IMG/VR virus record: IMGVR_UViG_3300032282_002676
Location: 1 to 64,000 of that record
Source of the DNA: a virus
DNA length: 64,000 nt
Reading direction: 5' to 3' (one strand)
A program made the translations under genes and the position numbers. The notes under the pieces are model-generated. The model did no database searches, was not told the DNA's origin, and saw nothing but the letters and a program-made list of their open reading frames with translations. Below are positions 49,363 to 51,898 of this stretch, piece after piece. Positions within the stretch are counted from its first letter, which is position 1. Each line of letters starts with the position of its first letter.

Positions 49363-49923
49363 TTAATCCCAGAGGCCTTGGTAATATTTGCCAAATAGAC
49401 GGAATCCATTCTCCATGCGTTGACACTCTTCCCAAGTTGCCGCCCAATCGGTGTCCTTTACTTTCATCTCAAATGCGAATATCATTTCATTCATTATCCA
49501 ATCCCATCGAGCATGGATATCATTTATACCCTCATTTATTTTATGCTCACTATAAAAATTAAAAGTAAGTTGAGCATCCCAATCTTCGGTAGTTGTGCCA
49601 CGGAGATGTTCTGGTACATCTTCCATGTCTGTGAATGGTGAACCGTGTTTTGTTTCTTTCAACTGTTTCAGCATTGGTAGAATGATATCTGCTAGTGTGT
49701 GATCCATCGACCATGTATCATAACGGTCAATCTTCACATAGTTGATTCGTGGATGAACAAAGTCGAGAAAACTTTGCCATGCTACGCAGATCGGATTTAA
49801 ACGACTAGACCACTTCTCTATGATAGGTTCATCGTAATCAATCTCACGCCAAAAGAAAACTTTCTCCAGTATGGTGTATGGAGAAAGCCAATGACTACGA
49901 TAACATGATTTATAAATTTTCAT
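49363..49923 (-). CDS. Conserved phage protein of unknown function
   Basis: A 186-residue protein rich in Trp, His and acidic residues. Start chosen at ATG 49923 (MKIYKSCYRSHWLSPYTILE); a longer GTG start at 49965 would run into the tmRNA 3' region. Conserved strings are YVKIDRYDTWSMDHTLADII, LPMLKQLKETKHGSPFTDME, DVPEHLRGTTTEDWD and RWDWIMNEMIFAFEMK. They are very widely kept in marine T4-like and other phages, yet no role is known to me. No clear ribosome site is visible. Confidence 0.75.
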   Translation of the reverse strand: MKIYKSCYRSHWLSPYTILEKVFFWREIDYDEPIIEKWSSRLNPICVAWQSFLDFVHPRINYVKIDRYDTWSMDHTLADIILPMLKQLKETKHGSPFTDMEDVPEHLRGTTTEDWDAQLTFNFYSEHKINEGINDIHARWDWIMNEMIFAFEMKVKDTDWAATWEECQRMENGFRLFGKYYQGLWD

Positions 49924-49940: not shown

Positions 49941-50237
49941 GGGAGTGATTGGTTAATAAGGACACTCCCGAAACCCCAAGTGAGTTACGCTGCTAGGCGA
50001 TCCTCACCATAAAATGCGTCATTTGCATTTATAGATTTTGCTTGATTAACGGTCATCGCCTACCGTGTTGCCGTCTCCACTATCTCACGCTGTCGAAGCC
50101 TGGTCATCCCCATCAGGAGCACTCTCACGGTTTATCTGTCCGTTCCTAAATACATAGACAAGAATGCTCCTGGTGGAGATGGAGGGAATCGAACCCTCGT
50201 CCAACATGCCTTCGCTTTGAAGGAATATACAACAATT
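49941..50237 (-). ncRNA. ssrA: Circularly permuted two-piece tmRNA
   Basis: On the minus strand the acceptor piece comes first: T-arm GAGGG-TTCGATT-CCCTC (50198-50182), acceptor strand CATCTCC, A, then encoded CCA ending at 50171. A spacer follows, then the coding piece begins at 50111 with GGGGATGACCAGGCTTCGAC. GGGGATG (50111-50105) pairs with CATCTCC (7 pairs, one G-U), and CAGCGTG (50092-50086) pairs with CATGTTG (50208-50202) as helix P2. The tag frame runs from GCA at 50026 to the stop at 49985 and encodes ANDAFYGEDRLAA. A 7-bp stem GGGAGTG/CACTCCC (49969-49941) probably closes the 3' side. Outer ends are approximate. It rescues stalled ribosomes with SmpB. Confidence 0.93.
50114..50172 (-). 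repeat. Inverted repeat bracketing the tmRNA spacer
   Basis: CAGGAGCA (50114-50121) and TGCTCCTG (50165-50172) form a perfect 8-bp stem around the roughly 59-base segment that must be removed between acceptor and coding pieces. The stem starts inside the CCA end, so it would present the junction to the RNases that trim tRNA 3' and 5' ends. Confidence 0.8.
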
Positions 50238-50366
50238 CTATCTTATGTAATTGCCAGTGACAACCACATAAATGAACAAACACCAACCAAATCTTAATGC
50301 TATATCAAACCAACGTTCGAAATGATCGAGTGGTGTTTTATTTTCTTTTTTCGGTTCTATCATCAT
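50238..50366 (-). CDS. Tiny membrane-type protein
   Basis: A 42-residue frame from ATG 50366 (or 50363): MMIEPKKENKTPLDHFERWF, then a hydrophobic span FGWCLFIYVVVTG and a short end. The start overlaps the stop of the upstream gene as ATGA, and the frame ends just before the tmRNA acceptor piece. Coupling to the upstream gene and the single span support it as real; function unknown. Confidence 0.55.
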   Translation of the reverse strand: MMIEPKKENKTPLDHFERWFDIALRFGWCLFIYVVVTGNYIR

Positions 50367-50682: not shown

Positions 50683-51222
50683 TTACTTATATGCTGTAAA
50701 AGTTTGATTTGCGCCAAGTCTTGTTCTACCTTTACCTTTTTCCTCACTTGGTTTTACTTTGACGTTGTAATGCACTTTACCTTGATTTTCAACTTTACCT
50801 GATTTAGCAGAAGCATCAAGATGGTGCCAACTGCCCTCATGTGATTTGTGGTGAACAGCCAGAATAGATTCTTGCTTATGTTTATTGCCAACATTTTTTA
50901 AAGCATGGACCATTTTATTGTGACCTTCTTTACCTTTTTTAGCAGCATGGACTAAGTATGATCCTTCATGACTCACTTCATGTTCACCACCATACTGATA
51001 TTCACCTTTGTGTGGTCCAGACCAACCACCAATATGTCCAGATTTATGTGCATGTTCTAAGTCTTTCTTCATCTCTGCGTGTGCTGCCTTTTTTTTCTCT
51101 GGAGTATTCGTATGAGGACCTTCAGGAGATAATGCGCCTATACTGTGTCCAGAAGCCAAATGTTTATTTACCTTTTGCTGAAGTGGATTGCCTTCTACAA
51201 TGTACTGTTTTAATGATAGCAT
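50683..51222 (-). CDS. His-rich conserved phage protein, DUF3293-like pattern
   Basis: A 179-residue protein from ATG 51222 (MLSLKQYIVEGNPLQQ), chosen because AAAGGAGG lies four bases upstream. GHSIGALSPEGPHTNTPEKK, HAEMKKDLEHAHKSGHIGGW and HEGSYLVHAAKKGKEGHNKM resemble the N-x-x-x-x-x-L-x-x-D-L-x-x-x-G-x-x layout of DUF3293-type phage proteins. It is strikingly rich in His and Lys. The short N-terminal L-x-x-Y-[IL]-x-E string is a common leader of such phage proteins. Function unknown. Confidence 0.6.
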   Translation of the reverse strand: MLSLKQYIVEGNPLQQKVNKHLASGHSIGALSPEGPHTNTPEKKKAAHAEMKKDLEHAHKSGHIGGWSGPHKGEYQYGGEHEVSHEGSYLVHAAKKGKEGHNKMVHALKNVGNKHKQESILAVHHKSHEGSWHHLDASAKSGKVENQGKVHYNVKVKPSEEKGKGRTRLGANQTFTAYK

Positions 51223-51232
51223 GATGCCTCCT

Positions 51233-51898
51233 TTAGGCATATTTATCAATATACTGCATCAGAGGTTTCCGATAATCGTCAATCTGACGTTCAAATAACT
51301 GTGCTTCACCTTCACCAGTAGCAATCAATACTACTATATCATCAATCCACATTCCTGTCAACTCTGAGAACATCAAAGCATATGCGGTACATTGCATGAA
51401 GTAGTTCTGGATGTAACTTTCTTCCTTTTGCTTGGCAGAAGTCTTAAAGTCGATTACCGATAACTTACCGTTCCACACACCAATCAAGTCTACTCGGCCA
51501 GCGATTTTCAACTTATGTGAATATAGTGCTTGCTCTTGGGAATATACGTCACCAAGTTTCTCATCGATGATTGGTTTGATTTTGAAAAACATTTCCTTCA
51601 AATCTGGCATCATCGTTTGCAATCTAAATTCATTTGTTGCGTTGTTGATATAATCTTCACAAATTTTATGAACTCTAGTACCACGACCTGCCGCTTTGGT
51701 TGATATCTTGTTTGCTTCTTCAGCACCAATACGTTCACGCCATTCCATGATTGCTTGTTTGTTGTAATTACCAAGTACCGTAGTGATAGACTTATACTGT
51801 TCTCCTGTGGGAGTAGTATATCGTCTACCACTATCGGTTGTTACTGCTTTCAAGTCAAAGTCAAGTGCTGGCAGTTTTACATGATTAAAAGTTCGCAT
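51233..51898 (-). CDS. RecB/Cas4-like PD-(D/E)xK exonuclease
   Basis: A 221-residue protein with the full nuclease layout: GRGTRVHKICEDYI (the N-terminal H motif), IAGRVDLIGVWNGKLSVIDF (Asp in GRVDL and Asp in VIDFKTS, followed by Lys), and the Q-x-x-x-Y helix MQCTAYALMFSELTG. The family cleaves DNA ends in a metal-dependent way. In T4-like phages it probably acts in recombination or processing of replicating DNA. There is no CRISPR array here, so the Cas4 resemblance is only of fold. Confidence 0.82.
   Translation of the reverse strand: MRTFNHVKLPALDFDLKAVTTDSGRRYTTPTGEQYKSITTVLGNYNKQAIMEWRERIGAEEANKISTKAAGRGTRVHKICEDYINNATNEFRLQTMMPDLKEMFFKIKPIIDEKLGDVYSQEQALYSHKLKIAGRVDLIGVWNGKLSVIDFKTSAKQKEESYIQNYFMQCTAYALMFSELTGMWIDDIVVLIATGEGEAQLFERQIDDYRKPLMQYIDKYA

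Follow-up and report, generated by a model that had tools for sequence, protein, structure and literature searches.

tmRNA is an RNA that frees stuck ribosomes and marks their products for degradation by a tag, and in gammaproteobacteria it is a one-piece molecule. Two-piece tmRNAs are already known from phages, including T4-like ones: one has been described in the T4-like phage Melnitz, and 53 of 133 distinct phage tmRNA structures were of the two-piece type (PMC9004378). A further study built the Rfam model RF04321 and lists 79 phage sequences (PMC11915505). The gene described here is located in a window of 64,000 nucleotides, the whole stretch analysed, from an IMG/VR virus record of 69,646 bases. 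As in the Methylophilales phage Melnitz and the pelagimyophages (PMC9004378), it is a permuted ssrA gene in a T4-like myophage, but unlike the Melnitz gene, which belongs to an alphaproteobacterial lineage and is linked to a glutamine riboswitch, it is of the beta type, shows no riboswitch match and carries a YGExRLAA tag. With the betaproteobacterial permuted tmRNAs (RF01850/RF04321, PMC11915505) it shares the order of the parts, the intervening hairpin, the architecture of P2 and acceptor stem and a hairpin after the tag; it differs from them in being viral, in its class of tag, in lacking the last helix of the model and in a stop-codon stem that begins in the Gly-Glu codons.

Beta-type permuted genes are also present in the Stenotrophomonas Menderavirus and the phages Xanthomonas XacN1, Pseudomonas SM1 and Acinetobacter BUCT628, which differ from the virus studied here by tags ending in RIAA, ALAA, RLAA and TLAA, by other neighbourhoods and by their gammaproteobacterial hosts. 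Several permuted tmRNAs in phages of these four host genera are unannotated, among them those of SM1 (L135:1977-2397) and BUCT628 (L136:1950-2283), and in XacN1 a GOLLD RNA (L134:3359-3772, 227 bits) lies about 1 kb downstream of the unannotated permuted tmRNA. Phage-borne tmRNAs or tmRNA-like RNAs are further represented by the one-piece tmRNAs of the mycobacteriophage Bxz1 group and phage G and by the RNA of phage DS6A (PMC4131195). However, the Bxz1 group and phage G have the standard gene order and the DS6A RNA consists of a tRNA domain only, without a tag, whereas the window gene contains a conserved tag frame.

Gene form and pairing of the two pieces

The minus strand from about 50234 to 49941 was recognised as a circularly permuted tmRNA gene by ARAGORN and by two Rfam models (Table 1). 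This agrees with the preliminary description, which had proposed such a gene from the sequence and had placed its elements correctly to within a few bases. ARAGORN reported a permuted tmRNA with the tag ANDAFYGEDRLAA. The locus scored 140.6 bits with RF04321 tmRNA_permuted (E 1.4e-27; gathering threshold 47 bits) and 136.4 bits with RF01850 beta_tmRNA (E 1.8e-41; gathering threshold 84 bits), the sole clan member retained there. The order on the minus strand runs from the T stem-loop through CATCTCC-A-CCA, a 59-nt spacer, GGGGATG, a TTCGA motif and P2 to the tag frame, i.e. the T-arm, the acceptor 3' strand and CCA are encoded upstream of GGGGATG and the tag. The predicted fold includes the acceptor pairing and has a z-score of -3.6, with none of 100 shuffled sequences equally stable. 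Because 20 model positions of the last helix after the tag are deleted in the RF01850 alignment, this helix is absent here, and the gene is called beta-type by score and lineage, not by a complete structural match. By these sequence models, the phage carries a beta-type ssrA gene in circularly permuted form, which implies that the mature RNA would consist of two pieces. The segment between the pieces is 24-209 nt long in the viral relatives; it measures about 209 and 156 nt in L010 and L048, respectively, and 24-115 nt in most others.

Table 1. Parts of the permuted tmRNA gene and adjoining genes (positions in the window)
Feature	Position	Strand	Basis
tRNA-like 3' piece: P2b and P2a 3' strands, T stem-loop, acceptor 3' strand, A73-CCA	50171..50234	-	models, covariation
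T stem-loop GAGGG-TTCGATT-CCCTC	50182..50198	-	model match; covariation
Acceptor stem 3' strand CATCTCC, pairs with 50111-50105, contains U70 of G3-U70	50175..50181	-	
A73	50174	-	
CCA	50173-50171	-	
Intervening 59-nt hairpin segment (GGAGCA/TGCTCC), removal expected	50112..50170	-	sequence, fold
mRNA-like 5' piece, G1 through 3' hairpin	49941..50111	-	ARAGORN, Rfam
Acceptor stem 5' strand GGGGATG	50105..50111	-	
P2a 5' strand CAGCGTG, pairs with 50208-50202	50086..50092	-	covariation
P2a 3' strand CATGTTG	50202..50208	-	covariation
P2b CAACA, pairs with TGTTG 50234-50230 (5 bp extending P2)	50066..50070	-	Rfam, covariation
Tag frame ANDAFYGEDRLAA, resume codon GCA, stop TAA	49985..50026	-	ARAGORN; purifying selection
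Cassette stem 5' strand GGTGAG, pairs with CTCACT 49984-49979	50003..50008	-	compensatory synonymous changes
Cassette stem 3' strand, directly after the stop codon	49979..49984	-	
3' terminal hairpin of the mRNA-like piece, GGGAGTG...CACTCCC	49941..49969	-	Rfam, fold
Downstream neighbour gene phrog_11543, start probably ATG at 49923	49363..49923	-	conserved
42-aa ORF ending 4 nt ahead of the tmRNA gene	50238..50366	-	kept in nearest relatives

Both 7-bp helices claimed at the outset, the acceptor stem including G3-U70 and P2 (CAGCGTG/CATGTTG), form, and their strands covary in a set of 52 distinct viral permuted tmRNAs (47 environmental and five from isolate phages). In P2a, 99.5% of the cells are paired, with two-sided changes at six of the seven pairs; when the partners were dealt anew, which leaves the relatedness among the sequences in place, the value fell to 86% (maximum 91%). 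P2b is paired in 100% of the cases, and three of the five T-stem pairs show two-sided changes. The acceptor pairs G1-C72, G2-C71 and G3-U70, the last being the alanine identity pair, are constant, and pairs 4-6 switch type jointly on both strands (94.8% paired vs. 77%, maximum 84%, after re-dealing). The acceptor value is lowered, and a single apparent exception to G3-U70 appears, because six rows are misaligned by one base. Substitutions to more than one pair type speak for genuine helices joining the two pieces. Positions 73-76 read ACCA in 50 of the 52 sequences and ACTG in the 3' pieces of L007 and L100, where CCA is not encoded and would therefore need to be added afterwards.

Viral neighbourhood

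The preliminary description had also assigned the gene to a phage with a T4-like gene map, and the viral record indeed carries genes for a gp32-like single-strand binding protein, a baseplate wedge, a tail tube and tail proteins. Because these surround the tmRNA gene, we regard the virus as a T4-like myovirus. The idea that a permuted tmRNA is unusual in such a phage did not hold, since two-piece phage tmRNAs are published (PMC9004378) and a permuted one was present on the fetched stretch in 56 of 80 viral loci, the nearest 80 of at least 597 relatives of the neighbour gene phrog_11543 in IMG/VR. The tmRNA gene and phrog_11543 occur together at 87 loci, a number in which some contigs count twice; they were within about 30 nt of each other in 68 of these, and within 1.7 kb in nearly all others. 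Upstream of the tmRNA, the closest relatives have an ORF of 40-45 amino acids that ends a few bases before it. No tmRNA was found beside the neighbour gene in the isolate phages Limnohabitans DC31, Nitrincola 1M3-16, Atu_ph07 and phiM12.

SmpB was found neither in the window's record nor in 14 related or tmRNA-bearing virus records, which comprise five complete isolate genomes and also L052, a record included for its neighbour gene with no tmRNA in its fetched stretch; outside the five isolate genomes, this is weak evidence because neither the window record nor most of its relatives are complete. The window contains no Rfam riboswitch match, and riboswitch control as in Melnitz was therefore dismissed. 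The T4-type late promoter TATAAATA was likewise rejected, with only two occurrences in the window, below chance and none close to the tmRNA gene. A sigma-70-like site is present at 50263-50235, in a region with no more such sites than shuffled sequences. Slightly upstream of the tmRNA (50683-51249, minus strand), a protein of the S-adenosylmethionine lyase family (PF23780) is encoded, possibly with an anti-restriction function.

Tag frame, distribution and exchange

Translation of the frame from GCA to TAA gives the tag ANDAFYGEDRLAA. Among 24 distinct coding versions, the numbers of variable sites at codon positions 1, 2 and 3 are 2, 2 and 11, and the codon differences are 78 synonymous vs. 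12 nonsynonymous ones, the latter all conservative (A/S, F/Y, D/E). This codon pattern shows purifying selection on the tag frame, which is presumably translated. Tags of the YGE class additionally have a stem that joins the Gly-Glu codons to the bases right after the stop codon: GGTGAR pairs with CTYAC and GGAGAA mostly with TCTC, with compensation via synonymous codons, and three of 34 versions (GGAGAA with ACTCCAC) are out of register.

The pattern ND.[FY]YGE[DE].LAA, representing the ED/EE form, was found in 50 IMG/VR contigs and in none of 84,980 species genomes. With codon 9 left free, it matched 16 of 64 genomes of one betaproteobacterial family, 6 of 399 genomes sampled in the order, all from that same family, and none of 398 sampled across the phylum. 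The closest cellular tag is ANDSFYGESRLAA, which accounts for nearly all cellular matches and is located on one-piece genes. A strictly viral tag class, as considered at one stage, was dropped after a sampled genome with ANDSFYGESRLAA had been encountered, followed by the 16 of 64 in the one family. On these counts, the class of ANDAFYGEDRLAA appears to be new and almost confined to viruses, a restriction that could stem from hosts missing in the genome databases and not from viral adaptation. Because the unusual residues coincide in position, the data suggest that the viruses and the bacterial family share the YGE cassette through descent or transfer, not convergence. In one gene of the ANDSFYGESRLAA family (L181:1510-1530, minus strand), the codons for YGESR have the sequence ACGGC-GAAA-GCCGT and could form a GAAA-loop hairpin inside the tag frame.

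Near-identical viral genes differ sharply in this segment. L027 and L034 show a single mismatch in the approximately 237 nt before the cassette, few after it and about 50% identity inside, with the tags ANDAFYGEDRLAA and ANDETFALAA, respectively. The same pattern separates L014 (ANDERYALAA) from L016 (ANDAFYGEERLAA), contigs from separate datasets whose intervening segments differ too, and the occurrence of both tag states in separate contigs argues against chimaeric assembly. Between L007 and L100, 188 nt of the tmRNA are 94% identical, although their other stretches align only at 65-71%. Phages that differ by such swaps are 89-91% identical across several kb. A quick tree of the neighbour protein, built from 52 rows, requires at least 8 changes of tag class, at least 5 of these being forced by well-supported branches, vs. 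15.8 changes for shuffled tag labels; thus, tags are exchanged, though less often than expected by chance. Clean swapping of cassettes within near-identical tmRNAs, at least 5-8 times on this tree, appears to be new; neither tag exchange among phage tmRNAs nor the YGE tag class is reported in the literature searched, a set with most subscription papers and preprints outside it.

Proposed function and origin

Candidate reasons for a phage to carry a tmRNA are rescue, a decoy function and reprogrammed proteolysis. We consider it likely that the gene encodes a functional phage tmRNA which uses the SmpB, AlaRS and proteases of the host and whose tag is under selection. After transcription, the host tRNA-processing enzymes would trim the RNA (RNase P at G1 and 3' processing at CCA), the 59-nt hairpin would be lost, and acceptor stem and P2 would hold the two pieces together. 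Host AlaRS would charge the molecule via G3-U70, and during infection host SmpB would bring it to ribosomes that have stalled on broken mRNA. Translation would resume at GCA and append ANDAFYGEDRLAA, whose LAA end should direct the tagged product to host ClpXP. The phage would thereby keep ribosomes free while choosing which tag is used. Expression, cleavage, charging, tagging and an advantage of the tag are all predictions.

The repeated switching between YGExRLAA and bacterial-type ALAA tags suggests that the tag, not rescue alone, is probably selected. In E. coli, ClpX recognises the LAA end of the tag, whereas the residue preceding LAA matters for ClpA; many of the phage tags considered here have R or T at that preceding position (RLAA, RIAA, RMAA, TLAA), which, as a guess, may redirect proteolysis. 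We tentatively propose that the virus-associated class YGE[D/E]RLAA, together with the stem it carries, is an exchangeable cassette which, within a two-piece tmRNA that is conserved elsewhere, recombines with bacterial-type ALAA tags because the tag alters the fate of rescued proteins; the choice of tag would then set, e.g., which host protease or adaptor meets them. Natural phage tmRNA pairs that differ in the tag alone are ready-made experiments for separating rescue from tagging.

That the gene call itself is a false positive or a mistaken tRNA gene is exceedingly improbable: the T-arm taken by itself looks like that of any tRNA, but the covariance-model matches are full-length and far above threshold, the distant halves covary and the tag frame is conserved. 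We also regard it as very unlikely that the RNA is a decoy or inhibitor of host trans-translation that titrates SmpB or AlaRS. Such a role was put forward for the DS6A phage tmRNA, which lacks a tag, and in E. coli the expression of a molecule restricted to the tRNA-like domain inhibits tmRNA (PMC11915505, PMC4131195), but a decoy needs neither the tag frame nor the resume context nor the stop codon, all of which are present here under purifying selection. Among functional readings, the tag may mirror that of unsampled hosts, with its exchange tracking host switches and not a tuning of proteolysis. We rate this as conceivable, if somewhat doubtful: one betaproteobacterial family has the close tag ANDSFYGESRLAA and many environmental hosts have no genomes, but the genes with ANDSFYGESRLAA in that family are one-piece and distant from the phage scaffold, the ED/EE form is missing from the species genomes searched, and the swaps separate closely related phages.

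The same comparisons bear on the origin of the gene. In a short scaffold tree, a long branch separates all permuted sequences, those of viruses as well as those of bacteria, from the one-piece ones, the one-piece genes of the ANDSFYGESRLAA family lie far from the phage scaffold, and the window gene groups with the betaproteobacterial permuted tmRNAs (161 columns; weak support inside the permuted group). This grouping makes the earlier proposal of capture from a host with a split tmRNA plausible, but few bacteria of the order sampled, that of Herbaspirillum, have the permuted form: only 5 of 120 genomes scored above the cut-off of the permuted model, and ARAGORN called four of these five permuted. 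On the 161 columns, transfer may have run from host to phage, from phage to host or between phages. Because the beta-type permuted gene is common in one virus group and rare in the bacterial order sampled, phages may have helped to spread it. A recently captured host gene carried as a passenger without a selected role could likewise group with betaproteobacterial permuted tmRNAs, away from the one-piece ones, and the ALAA-class tags of sister phages resemble tags in Herbaspirillum's order. We disfavour this as quite improbable, since the best DNA match in six bacterial genomes tested spans only about 77 nt at 78%. In addition, the gene occurs widely and with conserved synteny across the virus group, its helices covary and its tag is under purifying selection, which suggests that the phage tmRNA gene is old and maintained. 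Two Herbaspirillum genomes contain permuted tmRNA-like elements without a normal tag (L138:6235-6732, minus strand; L141:1757-2102, plus strand), which may be mobile or decayed copies. The L141 genome also carries a one-piece tmRNA (L152, tag ANDNSYAQAA), and the L138 element adjoins a small DNA-binding regulator and a gene resembling a filamentous-phage gene.
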